From positions 62,001 to 126,000 of the forward strand of contig JALKAW010000001.1 in the NCBI GenBank assembly GCA_023015825.1: a stretch of 64,000 bases of DNA, given 5' to 3'. The number at the start of each line of letters is the position of its first letter. Within the stretch, counting starts at the first letter, position 1. The DNA is from Flavobacteriaceae bacterium S0862. GTDB lineage: Bacteria; Bacteroidota; Bacteroidia; Flavobacteriales; Flavobacteriaceae. The position numbers and the translations under genes are program-made. This document shows, piece by piece, positions 724 to 41,412 of this stretch. Under the pieces are notes generated by a model. The model was given only the letters and a program-made list of their open reading frames with translations. It was not told the DNA's origin and searched no databases.

Positions 724-751
724 TGTCACCCTGAGCGCAGTCAAAGGGTCT
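724..751 (+). repeat. Short palindromic element, copy 1 (intergenic)
   Basis: A 28-nt element made of the lead TGTCA, the arm CCCT, a core like GAGCGCAGTCGA (one change), the arm AGGG and TCT. The arms pair perfectly. It fills the gap between paaG and the dehydratase gene, and related copies lie at 1698, 9258, 11900 and 37348. Confidence 0.8.
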
Positions 752-1697: not shown

Positions 1698-1725
1698 TGT
1701 CACCTTGCGCGCAGTCGAAAGATCT
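1698..1725 (+). repeat. Short palindromic element, copy 2 (intergenic)
   Basis: Same orientation and layout as the copy at 724: TGTCA, arm CCTT, core GCGCGCAGTCGA, arm AAGA, then TCT. Relative to copy 1 a C-G pair in the stem has become T-A on both sides, and the outermost pair is lost (C-A). It lies between the dehydratase stop and the paaH start. Confidence 0.75.
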
Positions 1726-1742
1726 CATCAAAATATAGAATT

Positions 1743-2897
1743 ATGAACGTAGGAATTATTGGTTCTGGAACAATGGGAAGTGGTATAGCACAAGTTGCTG
1801 CAACTTCTGGTTGTAAAGTGAAATTGTACGACACAAACACTACAGCATTAGATAAAGCTAAAGCGGCTTTAGATAAAATATTAAATCGACTTATTGAAAA
1901 AGGCCGCATTGATGAGGTTGAGAAGAATAGAATTCAGAGTAATATTGAATATGTTGACAGCTTAAAAAGCTTATCTGATGCCAACTTAACTATTGAAGCT
2001 ATTGTTGAAAATCTAGAGATTAAGAAACAAGTATTTTTTGAATTAGAAGGCTATGTGTCAGACGATTGTATTATTGCTTCTAACACATCAAGTTTGTCTA
2101 TTGCTTCTATTGCATCCTCATTGCAAAACCCAGAGCGTTGCATAGGTATTCATTTTTTCAATCCAGCCCCTTTAATGAAGCTAGTTGAGGTGGTTCCAGC
2201 AATTCAAACATCAAAAGGAACATTAGATAAATCTGTTCAAATAATTATAGATTGGGAAAAAACAGTTGCTGTAGCTAAGGATACTCCAGGGTTTATTGTC
2301 AATCGTGTGGCTCGACCGTTTTATGGAGAATCATTAAGGATTTATGAAGAGGGAATAGCTGATTTTGTAACAATAGATTGGAGTTTAAAAGAACTTGGAG
2401 GTTTTAGAATGGGACCTTTCGAGTTAATGGATTTTATAGGAAACGATGTCAATTACACAGTAACTGAAACAGTATTTACTGCTTTCTATTTCGACCCAAG
2501 ATACAAGCCTGCATTCACACAAAAACGTTTTGCTGAGGCTGGTTATTTAGGAAGAAAATCTGGAAAAGGCTATTACGATTACGATGAAGGAGCAACTAAA
2601 CCAAAACCAAAAGAAGACAATAATCTAGCGCAAAAAATATTTGACAGAGTTTTAGTAATGCTTATTAACGAAGCTGCGGATGCTTTATTTTTAAATATCG
2701 CATCAGCAGAAGATATTGATAAAGCAATGACCAAAGGAGTTAATTATCCAAAAGGTTTATTGGCCTGGGCTGACGACAAAGGTATAGATTGGTGTGTGTC
2801 AAAAATGGATAAATTGTACGATGAGTATCATGAAGATAGGTATCGTTGCAGTCCTTTATTACGAAAAATGAATAAAGAAAACAAAACATTCTTTTAA
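1743..2897 (+). CDS. paaH: 3-hydroxyacyl-CoA dehydrogenase PaaH
   Basis: NAD-dependent oxidation of 3-hydroxyadipyl-CoA to 3-oxoadipyl-CoA in the phenylacetate pathway. The N-terminus is a Rossmann fold with GSGTMGSGIAQ at residues 7-17. The catalytic His lies in IGIHFFNPAP with the partner Glu in LVEVVP, and TPGFIVNRV leads into the helical C-terminal part, which carries a second 3HCDH-type segment. At 384 residues it is shorter than E. coli PaaH (about 475). The stop overlaps the start of the next gene by one base, which points to translational coupling with paaI. Confidence 0.85.
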   Translation: MNVGIIGSGTMGSGIAQVAATSGCKVKLYDTNTTALDKAKAALDKILNRLIEKGRIDEVEKNRIQSNIEYVDSLKSLSDANLTIEAIVENLEIKKQVFFELEGYVSDDCIIASNTSSLSIASIASSLQNPERCIGIHFFNPAPLMKLVEVVPAIQTSKGTLDKSVQIIIDWEKTVAVAKDTPGFIVNRVARPFYGESLRIYEEGIADFVTIDWSLKELGGFRMGPFELMDFIGNDVNYTVTETVFTAFYFDPRYKPAFTQKRFAEAGYLGRKSGKGYYDYDEGATKPKPKEDNNLAQKIFDRVLVMLINEAADALFLNIASAEDIDKAMTKGVNYPKGLLAWADDKGIDWCVSKMDKLYDEYHEDRYRCSPLLRKMNKENKTFF

Positions 2898-8991: not shown

Positions 8992-10284
8992 ATGTCAAGA
9001 TTTGAATTTAAAATGCCCAAACTGGGAGAAAGTATTACTGAAGCAGCCATTATAACTTGGTTCAAAAATGTTGGTGATACCATTGAACAAGATGAGATGC
9101 TTTTAGAGGTCGCTACAGATAAAGTAGATTCTGAAGTACCTTCAACAGTATCAGGTGTAGTTGAAGAAATTTTATTCAAAGCAAATGAGGTTATAAAAAT
9201 TGGAGACACCATTGCTATTATTAAAACAGATGGAAAGACTCTAAAAACAAAAAAGAATGACACTTCGAGCGCAGTCGAGAAGTCTCAGAAGAAAAAGGCA
9301 AATGTTCAAAAAACAGAAAGAAAACCAAAGCAATTAGCAACTGCATCTCAAAACAATAATACTTTCTTTTCGCCATTAATTATTTCAATAGCCAAAGAAT
9401 ATCATATTAGCTTTGAAGAATTGGCGCGAATTCCTTCAACAGGTAATGATGGACGTTTGCGTAAAAGCGATGTGTTTCAATACATAAAAGAAGGTAGACC
9501 TTATAAATTTGTACAACCAAGTGTGACACAAGACCCAACCGCTTATCGCATTCCTCAGCCAAACTTAGATAAAGGCACAGGAAAGATTGTAAAAATGGAC
9601 AGGATGCGCCAGATGATAGCGGACCGAATGGTGTATTCAAAGCATACCTCACCTCATGTGACTGCCTACGTTGAAGCCGATTTAACCGACTTAGTTGCAT
9701 GGAGAAATACAAATAAAATCGCGTTTCAAGAAAAGCATAATTGTAAACTAACGTTTACACCATTATTTGTCGAAGCTGTCGCAAAAGCTGTTAAAGATTT
9801 CCCGATGATTAATGTCTCTGTCAATGGTGAAAATATCATTGTCAAAGAACATATTAATATTGGAATGGCAACAGCGTTACCAAGCGGAAATTTGATTGTA
9901 CCAGTGGTTAAAGACGCAGACAAAAAGAGTTTAAAAGAATTGGCAGCTGATGTCAATAAATTATCAGCAAAAGCTAGAGACAATAAGTTAAATCCAGAAG
10001 ATATTAAAGGAAGCACTTTCACGATTTCAAATGTTGGAACCTTTGGAAGTGTTATGGGAACACCTATTATTAATCAACCAGAAGTGGCCATATTGGCCAT
10101 GGGAATTATTAAAAAGCGACCAGAAGTTATAGAAACCGAAAAAGGTGACGAAATAGCTATTAGAAGCATGATGTATTTGTCCTTATCGTTTGACCATAGA
10201 GTAGTCGATGGTTATTTAGGAGGAAGTTTCGTGCGTCGCGTAGCCGATTATTTAGAGCAATTTGATATAAATAGAGAAATATAA
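8992..10284 (+). CDS. 2-oxoacid dehydrogenase E2 (dihydrolipoamide acyltransferase, branched-chain type)
   Basis: Core acyltransferase of a branched-chain 2-oxoacid dehydrogenase complex, 430 residues. Residues 1-80 form one lipoyl domain with the lipoylated Lys in EVATDKVDSEV. A linker of about 40 residues follows, then a peripheral-subunit-binding domain (SPLIISIAKEY to SDVFQYI) and the catalytic domain, which ends with the His/Asp motif DHRVVDG. The linker contains an in-frame copy of the palindromic element, giving SAVE at residues 93-96. With the fused E1 at 11472 and IlvE between them, branched-chain acids are the likely substrates. The E3 partner is not in the window. Confidence 0.87.
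   Translation: MSRFEFKMPKLGESITEAAIITWFKNVGDTIEQDEMLLEVATDKVDSEVPSTVSGVVEEILFKANEVIKIGDTIAIIKTDGKTLKTKKNDTSSAVEKSQKKKANVQKTERKPKQLATASQNNNTFFSPLIISIAKEYHISFEELARIPSTGNDGRLRKSDVFQYIKEGRPYKFVQPSVTQDPTAYRIPQPNLDKGTGKIVKMDRMRQMIADRMVYSKHTSPHVTAYVEADLTDLVAWRNTNKIAFQEKHNCKLTFTPLFVEAVAKAVKDFPMINVSVNGENIIVKEHINIGMATALPSGNLIVPVVKDADKKSLKELAADVNKLSAKARDNKLNPEDIKGSTFTISNVGTFGSVMGTPIINQPEVAILAMGIIKKRPEVIETEKGDEIAIRSMMYLSLSFDHRVVDGYLGGSFVRRVADYLEQFDINREI
9258..9285 (+). repeat. Short palindromic element, copy 3, in frame inside the E2 gene
   Basis: Lead TGACA, arm CTTC, exact core GAGCGCAGTCGA, arm GAAG, then TCT. All four arm pairs match but use different bases from the copy at 724. It is read as DTSSAVEKS in the flexible linker after the lipoyl domain. 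Confidence 0.85.
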
Positions 10285-10404: not shown

Positions 10405-11472
10405 ATGAAACATAACATTTCAATAAAAAGAGTAGAAAAATCTAAAGTTAATGACTTAGACTTTGATAATATTCCACTAGGAAGAACTTTTACAGACCAT
10501 ATGTTTATTTGCGATTATGTGAATGGAAAATGGATGAACCCTAGAGTAGAACCACTGCATTTAATTCCGACACACCCTGCTGCGATGGCATTGCATTATG
10601 GTCAAGCTATTTTTGAAGGAATGAAGGCAACTGTAGATACTCAAGGCACCCCAATGTTATTTAGACCAGCAAAAAACGCCAAAAGATTAAATTCGAGTGC
10701 GGACAGAATGGGAATGCCAAATTTTCCAGAAGACTTGTTTGTTGAAGGATTAAAACAGCTGGTTGCTATTGAGCAAGCCTGGATTCCACCTCAGGAGGGA
10801 AGTGCGTTATATCTAAGACCATTTATGTATGCTGATGAACCTTTTATTGGCATGCGAGCAGCAACAAGTTTTAAATTTATCATTATTGCATCTCCTTCAG
10901 GACCATTCTTTACTAAAAGAATAAAGCTATATGCCGAAACTAAATACATTCGTGCAGCAGAGGGAGGAACTGGAGAAGCCAAAGCAGCAGGAAATTATGC
11001 TGCAGCAATTCGTCCAACAGAATTAGCAAAAGCTAAAGGATATGATCAGGTATTATGGCTTGATGCCATAGAACATAAATACATTCAAGAAGTTGGGACT
11101 ATGAATATTTTCTTTAAAATTGATGGAAAATTTGTAACACCTAAACGTGATGGAGCAATTTTAGATGGTATTACAAGAATGAGTGTCATTGATTTGTTAA
11201 GACACAAAGGATTTGAAGTCACCGAAAGACCAATTAGCATTAATGAGATTCAAGAAGCATCTAAAAATGGAATGTTGGAAGAGGCCTTTGGTACTGGAAC
11301 AGCAGTTGGAATTGCTTATATACAAGAAATAGGATTTGGTGAGGAAACGATTCATGTTTCTGATGAAAGTCCTATTGGATTAGATGTGAATGACACATTA
11401 AACGGAATTAAAACAGGAAAAATTGAGGATAATTTTAACTGGATGGTTAAAATTGAAAAAGAGTTGGTTTAA
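10405..11472 (+). CDS. ilvE: Branched-chain amino acid aminotransferase
   Basis: PLP enzyme of fold type IV, 355 residues, that interconverts Leu/Ile/Val and their 2-oxoacids. It belongs to the longer type II group shared with eukaryotes: the PLP Lys is in GEAKAAGNYAAAI, followed by VLWLDA and EVGTMNIFF, and the C-terminal region has GTGTAVGIA. The start is ATG 10405; an in-frame TTG at 10381 falls inside the inverted repeat. The stop overlaps the E1 start by one base, so aminotransferase and dehydrogenase are coupled, which suggests a role in catabolism. Confidence 0.9.
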   Translation: MKHNISIKRVEKSKVNDLDFDNIPLGRTFTDHMFICDYVNGKWMNPRVEPLHLIPTHPAAMALHYGQAIFEGMKATVDTQGTPMLFRPAKNAKRLNSSADRMGMPNFPEDLFVEGLKQLVAIEQAWIPPQEGSALYLRPFMYADEPFIGMRAATSFKFIIIASPSGPFFTKRIKLYAETKYIRAAEGGTGEAKAAGNYAAAIRPTELAKAKGYDQVLWLDAIEHKYIQEVGTMNIFFKIDGKFVTPKRDGAILDGITRMSVIDLLRHKGFEVTERPISINEIQEASKNGMLEEAFGTGTAVGIAYIQEIGFGEETIHVSDESPIGLDVNDTLNGIKTGKIEDNFNWMVKIEKELV

Positions 11473-13547
11473 TGAAAAAAGAAATACTTAAAAAAGCATT
11501 TTCTAAGCTCTGTACGGCTAAAGCCATGACCGAATTGTATGAAGCTAATTTTAAACAGGTTTCTAAATACGTGCATGCAACTTCCAGAGGTCATGAAGCA
11601 ATACAAATAGCGTTAGGTTTACAATTATTACCTCAAGATTATGCGTTTCCATATTATAGAGATGATGCTATGTTGTTATCGTTTGGAATGCAACCTTATG
11701 ATTTAATGTTGCAGCTAATGGCGAAGCAAGATGACCCTTTTTCAGGTGGAAGAACATACTATTGTCATCCAAGTTTAAAAGACGCAGACAAACCAAAAAT
11801 ACCACATCAATCATCTGCAACAGGAATGCAAGCAATTCCAGCAACTGGAGTTGCAATGGGAATGCAATACCTTGAAAAACAAAATTTAAGTAATTCTAAC
11901 GTCACCCTGAACGCAGTCGAAGGATTACAAGAAAAACCAATAACCGTTTGCTCATTAGGTGACGCCTCAGTTACTGAAGGAGAAATAGCTGAAGCCTTTC
12001 AGATGGCAGCATTAAAGCAGATGCCAATTTTGTATTTAGTTCAGGATAATGGTTGGGATATATCAGCAAATGCTGCTGAAACTCGAGCGCAAAATGCGTT
12101 TGAATATGCAAAAGGTTTTCATGGATTAGATGCAATTACTATCGATGGTGCTAATTTCATAGAAAGTTACAAAGCATTAGAAAAAGTAATTAATATAATT
12201 CGTGAAGAACGTAGGCCTTTTTTAGTACATGCTAAAGTACCTTTATTGAATCACCATACTTCTGGTGTTCGAATGGAATGGTATCGCGACGATTTAGACG
12301 AAGCACGTACACGCGACCCTTTTCCAGTTTTAAAACAACAGTTATTAGATAACGAATTTTCAAAAAAAGAGATAGAAGAAATAGAAAAAGCTGCAATTTC
12401 GAAAGTAAAAGAAGATTTTGAAAAAGCTTTAAAGGCTGAAGACCCAAAGCCAGAAGATTTATTTACTCATGCTTTTGCTCCAACTCCAATAACTGAAGAA
12501 ATAGGAACACGAGAACCAGAAGGAGCAGAAAAAGTAGTGATGGTAGATTGCGCTTTGTTTGCCGTTGAGGAACTCATGAAGAAACACCGAAAATGTTTGT
12601 TATATGGTCAAGATGTAGGTGGACGATTAGGAGGTGTATTTCGTGAAGCAGCAACATTAGCACAAAAATTTGGCGATGATAGAGTGTTTAACACACCAAT
12701 TCAAGAAGCTTTTATTGTTGGATCAACAGTTGGAATGTCTGCAGTTGGTTTAAAACCCATTGTTGAGGTTCAATTTGCCGATTATATTTGGCCTGGTCTC
12801 AATCAGTTATTTACTGAAGTAAGTAGAAGCTGTTATTTATCAAATGGGAAATGGCCAGTAAGCATGATTCTACGCGTGCCAATTGGTGCCTACGGAAGTG
12901 GTGGTCCTTACCATTCATCTTCTGTAGAAAGTGTTATTACTAATATACGAGGTATCAAAATAGTGTATCCAAGTAATGGAGCCGATTTAAAAGGTTTGAT
13001 GAAAGCTGCGTACTACGACCCAAATCCTGTGGTAATTTTAGAGCACAAAGGTTTATATTGGAGCAAAGTTCCAGGAACCTTAACCGCAACGTCTGTTGAA
13101 CCAAGTGAAGATTATGTTTTACCACTGGGTAAAGCTTGGGTGTTACAAGAAATTTGGAAACAAGAAGATGTTGAAACACTTACAGTTGTGACCTATGGAA
13201 TGGGAGTCCATTGGGCATATAATGCTTCAGGTGAGTTAGATATGAGAGACCAAATTGAAATTATCGATTTGCGAACTTTATTCCCTTTAGATGAAGATAC
13301 AATCATGAATTCTGTCAAGAAAACTGGAAAATGTTTAATGGTCACTGAAGAACCAAGCAATAACAGTTTTGCATTAGCATTAGCTGGAAAAATCCAAGAA
13401 CAGTGTTTTCAGTATTTGGATGCTCCTGTAATGACTATTGGTAGCGAAAACATGCCTGCTATTCCGTTAAACTCTACGTTAGAGCAAACCATGATTCCTT
13501 CAACAGTAAAAGTGAAAGATAAAATCTTAACGTTGCTAAATTACTAA
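11472..13547 (+). CDS. Fused E1 alpha-beta subunit of branched-chain 2-oxoacid dehydrogenase
   Basis: Thiamine-diphosphate 2-oxoacid decarboxylase, 691 residues, with both E1 chains in one protein. The alpha part (about 1-330) has the TPP/metal motif starting GDASVTEGE and ending at DNGWD. The beta part (about 350-691) has VEELMKKH, GQDVGG, NTPIQEAF and the FADYIWPGLNQL helix. Separate alpha and beta genes are the commoner layout; fused forms occur in Bacteroidota. It supplies acyl groups to the E2 at 8992. A palindromic element is read in frame just before the TPP motif (NAVE, residues 147-150). Confidence 0.88.
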   Translation: MKKEILKKAFSKLCTAKAMTELYEANFKQVSKYVHATSRGHEAIQIALGLQLLPQDYAFPYYRDDAMLLSFGMQPYDLMLQLMAKQDDPFSGGRTYYCHPSLKDADKPKIPHQSSATGMQAIPATGVAMGMQYLEKQNLSNSNVTLNAVEGLQEKPITVCSLGDASVTEGEIAEAFQMAALKQMPILYLVQDNGWDISANAAETRAQNAFEYAKGFHGLDAITIDGANFIESYKALEKVINIIREERRPFLVHAKVPLLNHHTSGVRMEWYRDDLDEARTRDPFPVLKQQLLDNEFSKKEIEEIEKAAISKVKEDFEKALKAEDPKPEDLFTHAFAPTPITEEIGTREPEGAEKVVMVDCALFAVEELMKKHRKCLLYGQDVGGRLGGVFREAATLAQKFGDDRVFNTPIQEAFIVGSTVGMSAVGLKPIVEVQFADYIWPGLNQLFTEVSRSCYLSNGKWPVSMILRVPIGAYGSGGPYHSSSVESVITNIRGIKIVYPSNGADLKGLMKAAYYDPNPVVILEHKGLYWSKVPGTLTATSVEPSEDYVLPLGKAWVLQEIWKQEDVETLTVVTYGMGVHWAYNASGELDMRDQIEIIDLRTLFPLDEDTIMNSVKKTGKCLMVTEEPSNNSFALALAGKIQEQCFQYLDAPVMTIGSENMPAIPLNSTLEQTMIPSTVKVKDKILTLLNY
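11900..11927 (+). repeat. Short palindromic element, copy 4, in frame inside the E1 gene
   Basis: Lead CGTCA, arm CCCT, core GAACGCAGTCGA (one change), arm AGGA; three of four arm pairs hold. It is translated as TLNAVEGL in the same frame relative to the core as the copies at 9258 and 37348, in a loop between YLEKQN and the TPP motif. Confidence 0.8.
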
Positions 13548-35385: not shown

Positions 35386-38300
35386 TTAGTTTATATTTAT
35401 TCTAACACCTTCACTATGACTGCTAAATTCTGGAGCATACATACTTTGTATGGTTGTAATACCATTACTCATATTTCCAGCATTGTTTACGCGTAAATCA
35501 TATTCAAATACATACACGCCTTTTGGTAAATAGTCAAAAAAGAAATTAGTGCTAGCATCTTTGGTGCTTTCATAATAACCCAATCCATCTTGCCATTTGT
35601 ATTGAGACAACACATTTATAGGTTCCAATCCTGAAGCTCGCATATCTTTCATATGAATGAATTCCATGGTTCTATCACTTCGTAATTCGATTCGAACTCT
35701 TACCAAATCACCAACTTGTAGTTTAGTTTCAGAAGTGATTTTAGTAATTTCTTCGCCTTTATCTGTATTGGTTTTTAGGAATAATTTCTTACTCAATTTC
35801 AAAGGTGTTTCCGCTGAAGTAATCTTATCTAAATCCTCAAAATATTGCCAATACAAACTTCCCCAAGCAATACCATCGCCTTTTTTGGTGAGTTTTACGT
35901 CTGCCATTTCAGATTGAATTTCAGAACCATTCCAAGAAGTTTTATAATAACCAGTACCAGCTTCTACTTTTACGTTTTCTAGTTTAGCTGGATTAATTTT
36001 TTTGCCACCTAATACTACATCAACCATGTCTGTTACACTCAACCAATCGCTACCTTGCAACAGTAAAGCATATACAGCTTCAGTAGTTGCTTTTGTAGTT
36101 TTCCATTGGTTGGTTTGCTTGTTTTTAAGTAACCATATTTTAAGGTTATCAATAGTATTTGTGTCATTTTCAATTTTAGCAAAAGCTTCAATTAATAAGG
36201 CTTGTGTTTCAATTGGTGCTTGATACCAATACCACGAATTCGTGTTTTCTTTCCAATACATGCCTAATTCATCCGAAGTAATGCTATTTTCTTTCAAGGA
36301 CTTTAAAATTTTTGCAGATGTTAGGTTATCATCCATTCTATCTACAACCAAAGCCATCAATCCTTTTGCATACAATGAGCGAGATAGCCAATATTTTTTG
36401 ATTTGAGAATGATAATAAGTTGTGATATCTTCAACTTCTTTTGATTTTTCAATGTCAGAGAAGAAGCTTCGCATATACAAATAATGCAGTTGTGTATAAC
36501 TTAGATGGTCTTTGCTTAAATCGACATCTTTGTTATACTTTCTAATGTCTTTATATTCTTTTATAAATTCAGAATCTAAATATCCAATGGCTTTTTCAAT
36601 CATTGATGATTCGTTTGGACTAGAAACAACATTAAGTTGTTTTAAATGACCAAAACCTGTAATGATATGTTGTGTGATATAACGATTTTCGCCTCCACCA
36701 TTAAACCAGGGCCAAGCACCTGAAGTCATTTGATTGTTTTGCAGTTTACGTAAAGCCGATTGTAACTCGTTATTCATTTTGTTCATGTCGAATAACAATG
36801 CAATGCGTTTTTTCTGTTCGGTTTCACTTTGTGCATCACGTAACCAAGGTGTTTCTTGAATGAGAATAGATTTTAATTCTTCATTCTTTTCAAGATTACT
36901 TATTAAAGCATCCGCGTTTTTCCACTGATTAAAGACTTCTTGAATTCTAGGATTGCTATTTGCAATATGACTTGCTAAAGCATTGGCATAATAGCTTGAA
37001 AACGTTTGCTCATTACACTCATAAGGATATTCCATCAAAAATGGTAAAGCTTGTACAGCGTACCAAGCAGGATTGCTTGTCATTTCTAGGGTTAACTTAT
37101 GATGTTTAAGCGTTGTCGAGGTATTTGTTTTGAGTTTATCTAAAGTAAATGTTCTGGTTTCGTTGCTACTTATCCACATTGGTAAGGTTTCAGTTACTAA
37201 CATTCTGTTACTTAAAACTGGTAAAGCATTTTGTTCTCCATCACTAAAATTACCAGCTTTTGCTATGACTTTGTATTGCACTGCTTGAACAGTATCTGGT
37301 ATTTCTAATTGCCAAGACACTTGTGTGTTGCCTTCTTTTTCTACTAAAAAGATCTCGACTGCGCTCGACCTGACAAGTGCTTCAGTGATGTCTTTTCCTG
37401 AAATGGCGTCTGTTAACTCTAATCTTGCTAATCCAGATAATTCTTTATCTAAAAGGTTTGCAATTTTGGTGCTAATGGTGATTTGGTCACCTTCACGTAA
37501 AAACCGAGGTGCATTTGGTATCACCATCAATTCTTTTTGTGTCACTGTTTCTAAAGACGTCACTGTACTTTCTAAAGTTTTAGTATGCGCTAATAATTGT
37601 AATTTCCATTTGGTTAAGGCTTCAGGTGTAGTAAAACTAAAGATCACATTGCCTTGGTTATCTGTTTGTAAATGTGGAAAGAAAAAAGCTGTTTCTTTAA
37701 GATTTTTTCTAATGGTAACACCAGAGAAATCTTTTTTTTCTTCTATAGCTTGCGAAGCATATCCTAAAGATTTGTTATCACTGTTAATACCTAGGCCTGT
37801 AACAACCACTTCATCTAATGATTCCTCATTATCACTTATCATCATATTAGTAACATCTGTTAAAACCTCTTGCTCTGGAGCTATTTTAGCTCTTCGATTA
37901 AAAAGGGCATAGCGATTGCTAAAATAAAATCCAAACCAATTAAAATAGTCATACTTCTGTGTTTTAAACTGGTAATATGCTGTTCTATCACGATGAACTC
38001 TAAAATTCATATTCCCAAATCCACGTCCAGTATTTCTATTGGAGAAACTTCTATATATTGGATTTAGAATAGGATTAAAATTCCATTGATGAGCTTTAAA
38101 TTGGTCTAACGAGGCATCATACATACTAGCTAATAATTCAGCAGCGACTTTATCGCCTTTAGGACCTTTTATTTTAAAACTCCAAGTTTCGTCTGTTCCT
38201 GGTTGTAGCTTATCTCTATAGGTGAGCGTTTCAATGTCCAAATCTGTTTTTGGATATGGTACACTAATGTTTATCACGCCACTTTCAAAACTATTAAAGG

Positions 38301-41300
38301 CTGCAAAACTGTAATGCACAACAAAGCCTCCTAAGTCTTTTTTATCGATAGGAATACAAATGCTTTCTTTATTATTATCAAGATAAGTAACCTCTGTTTT
38401 AATTGTTTTATGGTCTTTTTCAATATCAACCGTTACTGTGAGGTTAGTTGCAGATGCAAACGTGATTTCAACTGTATCTCCAATCTTATAACTTGATTGG
38501 TCTGTTGTTACAGCAAATAATTGATTGTCTGAAACCTCTTTGTCTTTATCACTATACAAGGTGATTTTTATTTGGTCTTTCACGTCTTGACCAAACTTGT
38601 CTTTAGTTTCTAAAACAATAATATATTCTCCAGATTCCCATTTTTTAATCTTTCCTAGAGCAAGTTCTTTTAATATTTCTGTATCGAATGTTTTCTCTAA
38701 AACAAGTGCTCCTTTTCCCCATTGATTGCTATCGTCTTCATTGGCATAAGCATCATTTGGGAACAGTTGTTTGAACTCACTTTCAGATAGCATTTGATAA
38801 TCTGGAGCCTTCCAAGGACGCTGTCTCAAGACAGATTTAGGCGCAATTAATTTATAGATTTTAATGGTTCCTTTTGCAGGAACAAATTCACCATTAAGGT
38901 TTTTGGTGTCAATGGTTAGTTTGTGGTCTTTTTGAGTTTTGTCCAGTTTAGCATCAACAGTTACGTTTGCAGTTAAGGTATGATAGCCAACATTGACAAT
39001 AGTAGTTGCACTTCTGGTTTCGCCATTTAAATCGGTAACGTCAGCAGTGATTTTATAATTGAAAATTGGTAAGCTACTTTTATCGACGCTTTCATCTGGT
39101 TGCGCTTTAAAAGTGATTTCAAATTCACCTTTCTCATTTGTGATACTTTCACCATGAGTTATTTCTTGGGGTTCGCTATTAAACCAAGGATGATACCAAA
39201 AATACCATCGTGGATACTGTACTTTTCTATGCACACGATACACCACTTTAGCATCAGTAATATTGCTTCCAGCATAAGCCAAAGCATTTCCTTTTACAGT
39301 CACAGAATCATTTACTATATAAGTTTCTGTAACAGGATTAAAAGTAGTTTCAAATTTTGGACGTTTGTATTCTTCGACAGAAAAATATTCTTCTATATCA
39401 ATGTCATTTTCATCTCCATAAAGATTTATATAGTAATTTCCAGTAAGTCCAGAGTTTGGTAAAATAAACTCACCTGAAACTGAACCAAATTCGTTTGTTG
39501 TTAATTCTATTGAGCTTATTTCCTCATCATTAACATTATAAAGTTCTGCATAAAACAATTCATTAGCTAAAACTTGAGATTTACCATCTTCGGTTTTCAT
39601 CGCAATGCCTTTAAAATATACTGTTTGTCCAGGTCTGTAAATACTTCTGTCTGTGAATAGAAAAGCTCTAACTTCAGGTTCTTTTTCGTTAATATTCCCA
39701 CGATTATTTACATAAAAATTATCGAAACAGGCTTTGTCATTTCTTTTGCTAACTATGATGTCTAATTGCCAATAACGATCTTTAGTTTTTCTAATTTTAA
39801 TATCTCCGTTTGTGTTAGTGGTTTTGTGTTCGGTTTGCTCTGAGTTATTACCTCTACGATAGTTTAATGTTACTTTAGCATTGGAAATAGGTTGTCCGTT
39901 ATTTCTATCAATCACTTGGTAGATGTGATGATTTGCATCACTTTTATCGACAATAGCCATGTTAGTGACTTGCACAGTAGCAAAAGCAAAAGAGTCTTCT
40001 TTATCACTATCAGGTGATGCAAACATTACATAATAACCATTGTTTAATTCTGGCAATACAATTTCGGTGGAGTGAGTTTGATAATCGTGCTCATCACGCA
40101 ATTTACTTTCCCATTGTTTAGTAACTTTTAGTTTATTAATAAATGCTAATTGCTCTTCTTTTCGGTAAGTTTTATTAAGTTTTTCAAGTTGATTTCTACT
40201 TATGTGAAACACCTTCAAATTTAAATGGTCAAAATTCTTATAGCGAATGAGTAATCTAGAGTTTTTGTTAATTGGCAAATGACTTTCAGCAGTAATTTGT
40301 AATGACTTTTGAAGGATTTGTTGCTTCAAAACTTGGCACTTTTCAGCACCTTTGCTTTTAGAAAATTTATTGATGACTGCATCACATAATGCCATTGCTT
40401 CTTTCATTTTCCAGCGATGTTCCTCGTTTATTGTTGGTTGATATGTGCTACCTTGCTGTATATATAAAGACGCAATCTCAAAATCGTATAATGCAGAAAC
40501 TTCATGTGATTTTAAACGATTGCTTTCAGCCTTTAAAGTTTCTAACAATTTAGTATCAATGTCACTAAAAGTAGCATGTTGTTTTACATACAATAAACGA
40601 TTGATGTCAATATCTGCAAGTGCATAAGGCGATTCATCTTTAACGTGAAACTGAATTAAATCCTGATACAATTTTAAGGCTTGTAATTGTAAAGAGGTGC
40701 TATCTTTTGAAACGATGTCCAATTGCGAAAAACTTTTAGCATCATTCAAAAACTGCTCATTATCAATCTCAAATTTATAAGCAGGTTTAGTAATGCTGTT
40801 TTCGTCTGTGGTATAAAACTCTAAAGCATTATGGGCTAAAAAATCAAAGAGTGTTGGTCTGTATGTTTTAGAATCTTTCTGAAGAATTAATAACTCATCA
40901 AAGTTTTTTAAATCTTCTAGCTTCAACAATAATTGTTGTTTTAAAGAATTTTGGTAATGCAAGCTAATCTCATCAAACAATGTTTGTAAATCCCAAGTTC
41001 TAAAATCGTCTTTATCTACTTTTTCTAAAGTTTTAGTTCGGTTGTAAAACTGCCATCTGTTTTGCTGAAAGTATTGCCAATACAAATTAGCCAATAGGTT
41101 TTCTAAAATATTTTTTGTTGGAAATTCACTTTGTGAAATCTCAGTTTTAAAATTGTTGATGATATTTAATTGCGTATCTTCTTCTAGAATCAAAGCAAAT
41201 TTGCTTTTGAATAAAAGCGCTTTTATACGCTGAACATTATTACCATCCTTTTCTCCTTTTTCGCTGATAGTTTCAACTACTTCCAAAGCAGATTCTGGTA

Positions 41301-41412
41301 AGCCTTCCACTTCAAACTTCTCGACTGATTTCCATAAATCAGAGTAATTATTTTGTGAGTGACTAAGGTTTGCAAATAGCAGAATCATTATGAAGGTAAT
41401 AGTTTTGTTCAT
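35386..41412 (-). CDS. Alpha-2-macroglobulin family protein with thioester and SusC-like motif
   Basis: 2008 residues with a signal peptide (about 1-19, ending LSHSQ). An N-terminal helical/low-similarity region is followed by MG2-like domains (YRPGQTVYFKG near residue 590), the A2M region (NLKETAFFFPHL, PEALTKWKLQLLAHT near 1270) and the terpenoid-like domain with the thioester motif CNEQ in YPYECNEQTFS near 1464. Thioester forms trap proteases covalently. At residue 1200 it carries DEVVVTGLGI, the signature that opens the plug of SusC-type receptors. A palindromic element gives SAVE at 1350-1353. Probably periplasmic or outer-membrane associated. Confidence 0.88.
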   Translation of the reverse strand: MNKTITFIMILLFANLSHSQNNYSDLWKSVEKFEVEGLPESALEVVETISEKGEKDGNNVQRIKALLFKSKFALILEEDTQLNIINNFKTEISQSEFPTKNILENLLANLYWQYFQQNRWQFYNRTKTLEKVDKDDFRTWDLQTLFDEISLHYQNSLKQQLLLKLEDLKNFDELLILQKDSKTYRPTLFDFLAHNALEFYTTDENSITKPAYKFEIDNEQFLNDAKSFSQLDIVSKDSTSLQLQALKLYQDLIQFHVKDESPYALADIDINRLLYVKQHATFSDIDTKLLETLKAESNRLKSHEVSALYDFEIASLYIQQGSTYQPTINEEHRWKMKEAMALCDAVINKFSKSKGAEKCQVLKQQILQKSLQITAESHLPINKNSRLLIRYKNFDHLNLKVFHISRNQLEKLNKTYRKEEQLAFINKLKVTKQWESKLRDEHDYQTHSTEIVLPELNNGYYVMFASPDSDKEDSFAFATVQVTNMAIVDKSDANHHIYQVIDRNNGQPISNAKVTLNYRRGNNSEQTEHKTTNTNGDIKIRKTKDRYWQLDIIVSKRNDKACFDNFYVNNRGNINEKEPEVRAFLFTDRSIYRPGQTVYFKGIAMKTEDGKSQVLANELFYAELYNVNDEEISSIELTTNEFGSVSGEFILPNSGLTGNYYINLYGDENDIDIEEYFSVEEYKRPKFETTFNPVTETYIVNDSVTVKGNALAYAGSNITDAKVVYRVHRKVQYPRWYFWYHPWFNSEPQEITHGESITNEKGEFEITFKAQPDESVDKSSLPIFNYKITADVTDLNGETRSATTIVNVGYHTLTANVTVDAKLDKTQKDHKLTIDTKNLNGEFVPAKGTIKIYKLIAPKSVLRQRPWKAPDYQMLSESEFKQLFPNDAYANEDDSNQWGKGALVLEKTFDTEILKELALGKIKKWESGEYIIVLETKDKFGQDVKDQIKITLYSDKDKEVSDNQLFAVTTDQSSYKIGDTVEITFASATNLTVTVDIEKDHKTIKTEVTYLDNNKESICIPIDKKDLGGFVVHYSFAAFNSFESGVINISVPYPKTDLDIETLTYRDKLQPGTDETWSFKIKGPKGDKVAAELLASMYDASLDQFKAHQWNFNPILNPIYRSFSNRNTGRGFGNMNFRVHRDRTAYYQFKTQKYDYFNWFGFYFSNRYALFNRRAKIAPEQEVLTDVTNMMISDNEESLDEVVVTGLGINSDNKSLGYASQAIEEKKDFSGVTIRKNLKETAFFFPHLQTDNQGNVIFSFTTPEALTKWKLQLLAHTKTLESTVTSLETVTQKELMVIPNAPRFLREGDQITISTKIANLLDKELSGLARLELTDAISGKDITEALVRSSAVEIFLVEKEGNTQVSWQLEIPDTVQAVQYKVIAKAGNFSDGEQNALPVLSNRMLVTETLPMWISSNETRTFTLDKLKTNTSTTLKHHKLTLEMTSNPAWYAVQALPFLMEYPYECNEQTFSSYYANALASHIANSNPRIQEVFNQWKNADALISNLEKNEELKSILIQETPWLRDAQSETEQKKRIALLFDMNKMNNELQSALRKLQNNQMTSGAWPWFNGGGENRYITQHIITGFGHLKQLNVVSSPNESSMIEKAIGYLDSEFIKEYKDIRKYNKDVDLSKDHLSYTQLHYLYMRSFFSDIEKSKEVEDITTYYHSQIKKYWLSRSLYAKGLMALVVDRMDDNLTSAKILKSLKENSITSDELGMYWKENTNSWYWYQAPIETQALLIEAFAKIENDTNTIDNLKIWLLKNKQTNQWKTTKATTEAVYALLLQGSDWLSVTDMVDVVLGGKKINPAKLENVKVEAGTGYYKTSWNGSEIQSEMADVKLTKKGDGIAWGSLYWQYFEDLDKITSAETPLKLSKKLFLKTNTDKGEEITKITSETKLQVGDLVRVRIELRSDRTMEFIHMKDMRASGLEPINVLSQYKWQDGLGYYESTKDASTNFFFDYLPKGVYVFEYDLRVNNAGNMSNGITTIQSMYAPEFSSHSEGVRININ
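37348..37375 (-). repeat. Short palindromic element, copy 5, in frame inside the macroglobulin gene
   Basis: On the minus strand: TGTCA, arm GGTC, exact core GAGCGCAGTCGA, arm GATC, then TTT. The arms differ from every other copy yet pair (three Watson-Crick, one G-T). It encodes RSSAVEI in the same core frame as the E1 and E2 copies. Confidence 0.85.

Follow-up and report, generated by a model that had tools for sequence, protein, structure and literature searches.

The window analysed here, a stretch of 64,000 nucleotides from the Flavobacteriaceae bacterium S0862, encodes on its minus strand a bacterial alpha-2-macroglobulin-like protein of 2008 aa (35386–41412) with MG2, A2M and bMG10 domain matches. 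Within this gene lies a TGTC-tagged REP-like element of 28 nt (37348–37375, minus strand), whose sequence on that strand, from 37375 to 37348, is TGTCAGGTCGAGCGCAGTCGAGATCTTT and which is read V-R-S-S-A-V-E-I; its arms are AGGTC and GATCT, including one G.U pair. The first-pass annotation had described an in-frame copy of a repeated element at this position with SAVE at residues 1350–1353, and both the sequence and the translation of the 2008-aa ORF agree with it. The whole insert (about residues 1347–1356) is located C-terminal of the A2M domain match (1241–1326) and N-terminal of a CNEQ motif, which we take to be the thioester motif; a sequence search for a solved structure of this macroglobulin returned no match.

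The 16-nt core of the element occurs twice exactly and once with three mismatches in the window, and its longer form, TGTCANNTNGAGCGNAGTCGA, gives five matches when up to three mismatches are allowed, with 0.03 expected from shuffled sequence in either case. Two of the five are intergenic: TGTCACCCTGAGCGCAGTCAAAGGGTCT (724–751, plus strand), directly 3′ of the stop codon of ORF 1–717, and the degenerate TGTCACCTTGCGCGCAGTCGAAAGATCT (1698–1725, plus strand), directly 3′ of the stop codon of ORF 757–1692. The other three are coding (matches at 9258 and 11900, and at 37355 on the minus strand, the last being the macroglobulin copy). The copy at 9258–9285 (plus strand) is read D-T-S-S-A-V-E-K-S in a 2-oxoacid dehydrogenase E2 acyltransferase of 430 aa (8992–10284, plus strand), in the linker between the lipoyl (5–77) and E3-binding (125–161) domains. 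The copy at 11900–11927 (plus strand) is read V-T-L-N-A-V-E-G-L, in the same frame as the E2 and macroglobulin copies, in a fused alpha/beta 2-oxoacid dehydrogenase E1 of 691 aa (11472–13547, plus strand). All three coding copies of the window therefore share the frame V-x-x-S/N-A-V-E (or, with a mutated tag, the corresponding one), hereafter sense frame 1. The earlier claim of three coding copies in one frame thus holds for the window, except that the E1 copy carries NAVE instead of SAVE. As a rule for the genome it holds in part: a fourth coding copy, at C35:136692, has the same frame, but the one at C35:107802, in a probable family-2 glycosyltransferase gene (DGGSTDGS motif), is read SGRAQSRS. 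That gene contains an inverted pair of elements in the different frame (L015, G000:C35:107774-107821; SGRAQSRSIDLSTAQE).

In the 241 copies collected from genus and family, the element consists of TGTCA and two arms of 4–5 bases with GAGCGnAGTCGA between them; the search pattern fixes this middle part and leaves the arms free apart from one Y. The arm pairs 6-25, 7-24, 8-23 and 9-22 are complementary in 93–98% of distinct non-coding copies and in 89–96% of sense-1 coding copies, compared with 39–80% after shuffling. The arms covary, and therefore the element is a quasi-palindrome whose complementarity is kept as the sequence itself changes. The first base is T in 93–95% and C in 2–4% of copies, the following GTC being imposed by the search pattern; the first stem pair is A-T in 64–68% of distinct copies and the second can be any base. 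The stem has 4–5 contiguous pairs, followed by a 2-nt bulge plus 2 pairs, the middle of the element has 6–12 unpaired nt, and the tail is mostly CT or absent. A stable RNA hairpin or terminator was considered and rejected: as RNA strands, single copies folded no better than shuffled sequence, which makes a terminator role of single copies doubtful.

The pattern GTCANNNYGAGCGNAGTCGA was found in 7–40 copies in each of the six genus genomes (six of six) and in 28 of 60 family genomes, with zero hits for the reversed-pattern control in both sets, and a class-wide draw contained the element in 33 of 119 genomes, with a maximum of 187 copies. The exact 27-mer GTCACCCTGAGCGCAGTCGAAGGGTCT is also present in MAGs of Chloroflexi, Clostridia and Bacteroidales; one Chloroflexi MAG has many copies of it (loci L336-L453), which may reflect horizontal spread or convergence. 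In the high-GC group of public genomes, mostly Chloroflexi, the codon model described below called none of 107 copies coding.

Non-coding copies lie mostly 3′ of genes, at a median of 21 nt past the upstream co-oriented gene, and their intergenic settings are convergent in 59 cases versus divergent in 10. Between co-directional genes, 76 copies are sense and 32 antisense to the genes (68 versus 26 without the tandem-rich genome G018). Most copies are single; where two are neighbours, 18 of 27 pairs are inverted with the tags outward, about 50 nt apart. In G018 (L278, L280, L284) the element forms tandem series with regular spacing of about 46, 166 and 95–99 nt. No consistent insertion target is visible in the upstream flanks of non-coding copies, which are merely A/T-rich.

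For the frame and orientation analysis, gene calling relied on a codon model trained on long ORFs rather than on expression data; the element itself was excluded from scoring, and a copy was taken as coding if the model found both flanks coding in the same frame. Decayed copies escape the search pattern, among them the E1 and E2 copies of the window, which were judged by hand. In the genus and family set, 41 of the 55 coding copies are in sense frame 1, with six in sense frame 0, one in sense frame 2, four in antisense frame 1, three in antisense frame 0 and none in antisense frame 2; collapsed to 33 homologous sites, the corresponding counts are 26, 4, 1, 4 and 3 for the five frames that occur. 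Pooled with named public genomes, the set comprised 286 distinct copies in low-GC DNA of the Flavobacteriaceae type, 75 of them coding with intact flanking frames at 41 homologous sites. These 75 are distributed as 58, 8, 3, 3 and 3 over the same five frames, and the 47 site-frame instances as 32, 6, 3, 3 and 3, leaving 15 outside sense frame 1, with the limit that homologous sites across species are not fully independent. The excess of sense frame 1 among site-frame instances has p = 6e-10 against one quarter (four open frames) and p = 1.2e-5 against sense frame 0 alone. The public-genome subset, which has some sites in common with the first set, has sense frame 1 in 18 of 21 coding copies, and other Bacteroidia have it in five of eight. 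The comparison of frames and orientations that the first-pass annotation had proposed therefore gives no even spread.

The bias towards sense frame 1 is strong, yet it has exceptions. Six site groups hold copies in differing frames or orientations, one of these groups being two neighbouring copies in one gene, and an apparently bad frame is kept in some conserved enzymes, such as CQTERSRS in an enzyme containing ...IYIVTESVF... in three genera. The orientation ratio at coding sites (31 sense to 7 antisense) does not differ from the 76:32 of the co-directional intergenic copies (Fisher p = 0.21), and the encoded peptide is therefore not needed to explain orientation.

In orthologs of the macroglobulin, E1, E2 and leucyl-tRNA synthetase (LeuRS), the host loops and linkers vary in length and, at the first three, also in sequence. 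The macroglobulin site is also filled in G004 (VRSSGVE) and in G049, which belongs to a different genus. A second macroglobulin site has ACCCT/AGGGT-type arms in G003, G018 and Algibacter, ACGTC/GACGT in G004, another repeat in the same frame (GTCATTCTGAACGAAAGTGAAGAATCT) in G001 and a compound insert in G002. The E1 loop has the ACCCT type in G000, the genome of the window, and in G002, and the TTCTGAACGAAAGTGA type in G004; the E1 loop of G005 contains another repeat-like insert in frame, GCTTCCTTCCCTTTGGGAAGGATTGAG (L085). The LeuRS loop is filled in four genus members and empty in G000; as judged by eye, it contains an apparent inverted pair of another CGTC-type REP in G010 and a third type of repeat in G030, from another family. 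This loop, at the entry to the editing domain before FTTRPD (L468, L469, L454-L483), with at least three unrelated repeat types, looks like an insertion hot spot. In related species, the same coding loops also hold a sister repeat, TGTCATTCTGAACGAAAGTGAAGAATCT (L064, L083), which has no open sense frame other than sense frame 1.

The window also contains an element-free loop, EGATKPKPKEDNN (2586–2624, plus strand), in a gene that we take from its sequence to encode 3-hydroxyacyl-CoA dehydrogenase; five relatives have a same-frame copy there, including G002, whose gene is 85–89% identical to that of the window in this region. The net insert is about +5 codons in this dehydrogenase and +8 in LeuRS. 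A clean insertion of 27 or 28 nt was rejected, since the loops differ in length and none of those compared is an exact empty site. Frame-preserving insertion length, which the first-pass annotation had offered as a cause of the common frame, does not account for it: readable net lengths vary, and a length divisible by three suits every phase equally and so cannot yield a phase bias.

The loops of LeuRS, the second macroglobulin site, E1 and the hydroxyacyl-CoA dehydrogenase hold, in related species, either differing arms, both changed together, or another REP type, all in the same frame. These patterns fit permissive loops that are inserted into repeatedly or whose inserts turn over. It is conceivable, albeit improbable in our judgement, that certain loops serve over long periods as docking sites for REPs, with copies being actively exchanged there and the frame kept; if so, template-switch or transposase-driven exchange would diversify protein loops.

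The observed repeat family, with its frame bias, orientation bias, complementary arms and variable host loops, is probably explained by a REP/RPE-like element that is kept in tolerant loops, where the purging of harmful readings together with a preference for the sense orientation makes sense frame 1 dominant. A dispersed 28-nt quasi-palindrome would spread through Flavobacteriaceae genomes and be kept mostly just 3′ of genes, and in-gene copies would survive solely in length-tolerant loops and linkers and with a harmless reading. A TGA in the tag complement blocks antisense frame 2 in every case, and another TGA blocks sense frame 2 if base 9 is T. The peptide of sense frame 0 contains Cys and several Arg (CHPERSRR, CHPERSRRV-like) and that of antisense frame 0 also contains Cys (FDCAQGD, RPFDCAQGD-like); for most arm types the codon model scores both below sense frame 1 (VTLSAVEGS) and antisense frame 1 (DPSTALRVT). 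Removal of the closed and poor frames would leave sense frame 1, with its nine-residue peptide (VTLSAVEGS/VTSSAVEKS), and antisense frame 1 (the STAL type), and the sense preference, which is present between genes too, would then favour the former. Stop codons and poor peptides, taken together with the general preference for one orientation, therefore predict sense frame 1 to come first, and the macroglobulin, E1 and E2 copies would be three cases of such a purge-filtered element. We infer that purging after insertion, rather than an insertion preference, is behind the frame bias. The STAL peptide of antisense frame 1 seems equally harmless, yet it accounts for 3 instances versus 32; the orientation bias covers just part of this rarity, so that something else may contribute to the excess of sense frame 1.

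A rival explanation is a phase-biased insertion machinery favouring the target phase in which GTC of TGTCA becomes a codon. Differing REP variants in the same frame and loop across species (second macroglobulin site, E1 loop, LeuRS) would be expected from it, but the absence of a consistent target in the A/T-rich flanks of non-coding copies, and several homologous sites with copies in differing frames or orientations, make it rather unlikely. In the sequences compared, purging after insertion and a phase-biased target are inseparable. Somewhat less doubtful, though still unlikely, is that the repeat is a DNA-level signal, namely a terminator, recombination or uptake site, and that coding copies are tolerated by-products. 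The clustering of non-coding copies past stop codons and in convergent settings and the inverted pairs with outward tags point in this direction, and uptake sequences, too, lie mostly one way round within reading frames (PMC2346458); against it stand 7–40 copies per genus genome instead of the hundreds to thousands of uptake signals, the shuffle-like folding of single copies, and the absence of the element from half of the sampled family.

A functional peptide V-x-x-S-A-V-E-x-S, held in frame by positive selection, could account for the strong excess of one reading and for the S-A-V-E core being invariant in most copies found, but this invariance stems from a search pattern that fixes the DNA. 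Moreover, the hosts (LeuRS, an MnmE-like GTPase, E1, E2, the macroglobulin and the hydroxyacyl-CoA dehydrogenase) have no common function or compartment, the arm-encoded residues vary freely (L/S/P; G/K/E/R/T/M/N), in relatives the corresponding loops have decayed or other inserts, or none, and 15 site-frame instances use other frames; we therefore regard a peptide function as very improbable. The selection on the encoded peptide suggested by the first-pass annotation survives only in a negative sense, as the purging of bad readings (stops, CHPERSRR, FDCAQGD), and nothing points to a positive function of SAVE. Repeated counting of a few old insertions is equally hard to credit: several sites are indeed common to multiple species, but the bias persists after collapse to 41 homologous sites (32 of 47 instances), and the public-genome set, with its partly shared sites, and the other Bacteroidia point the same way. 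Purging in tolerant loops is the reading we retain. The family also calls for caution in annotation: segments resembling VTLSAVEGS, CHPERSRR or STALRVT are repeat-derived rather than conserved motifs.

Several known repeats resemble this element in part. Like the DNA uptake sequences of Pasteurellaceae and Neisseria (PMC2346458), it is a short repeat with one orientation favoured in reading frames; unlike them, it has covarying hairpin arms and the low copy number noted above. It shares with the GTAG REPs of RAYT transposases (PMC6006769, PMC3733652) a small hairpin with the tag at its base and a dispersion as single or paired units, but its tag is TGTC instead of GTAG/GTGG, and no link to a flanking RAYT gene was seen: Y1_Tnp had no match in the S0862 genome, none of 30 Y1_Tnp loci had the element, and an association was rejected, as Y1_Tnp presence is uncorrelated with the element (13/15/14/18, p = 1). 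The resemblance to the CGTC-tagged REPs (Di Nocera et al. 2013, PMC3733652) is closer and includes the terminal CGTC/TGTC tag, the palindrome, a mostly intergenic location near gene 3′ ends with some intragenic copies, inverted pairs and no associated transposase. Those repeats, however, have a stem of 8–9 bp with complementary A/T at positions 1 and 2, a loop of 4–5 nt and a CCA-like tail, whereas ours has 4–5 contiguous pairs plus 2 pairs across a 2-nt bulge, an A-T first pair in about two thirds of copies, a longer middle and no CCA tail. By its stem, loop and tail, the flavobacterial element falls outside the published CGTC-tagged REP families when these are taken strictly. The published repeats are predominantly head-to-head dimers; here 18 of 27 neighbouring pairs are inverted with the tags outward, and most copies are single.

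The Rickettsia RPE-4, RPE-6 and RPE-7, of which RPE-4 and RPE-6 are CGTC-tagged (PMC3733652), are likewise short tagged palindromes in frame in genes, in their case in exposed regions. In-frame residence at tolerant positions is common to both systems (here 75 coding copies at 41 sites, in loops or linkers where examined), and so are orthologous loci with different element types or none, a very close parallel, since a given locus in orthologous Rickettsia genes is reported to be occupied by RPE-4, RPE-6 or RPE-7 (PMC3767692). ATGAC/GTCAT stands beside the tag in both, as judged by reading the tag-proximal motif alone. The differences are the Flavobacteriaceae host, another sequence, and single 28-nt units versus inserts of 84–192 bp; for the flavobacterial element, moreover, the single dominant reading frame has been quantified. 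Intragenic REPs in loops have been discussed in earlier literature; in the literature searched, neither a published peptide VTLSAVEG nor REPs in flavobacterial coding sequences were found, and this family appears to be undescribed there, as do its dominant frame, the strength of the bias towards it and the loops that host it repeatedly. Protein-coding palindromes, best known from Rickettsia, are common also in free-living Flavobacteriaceae, where dozens of recurrent sites open insertion tolerance, frame choice and turnover to statistical testing.
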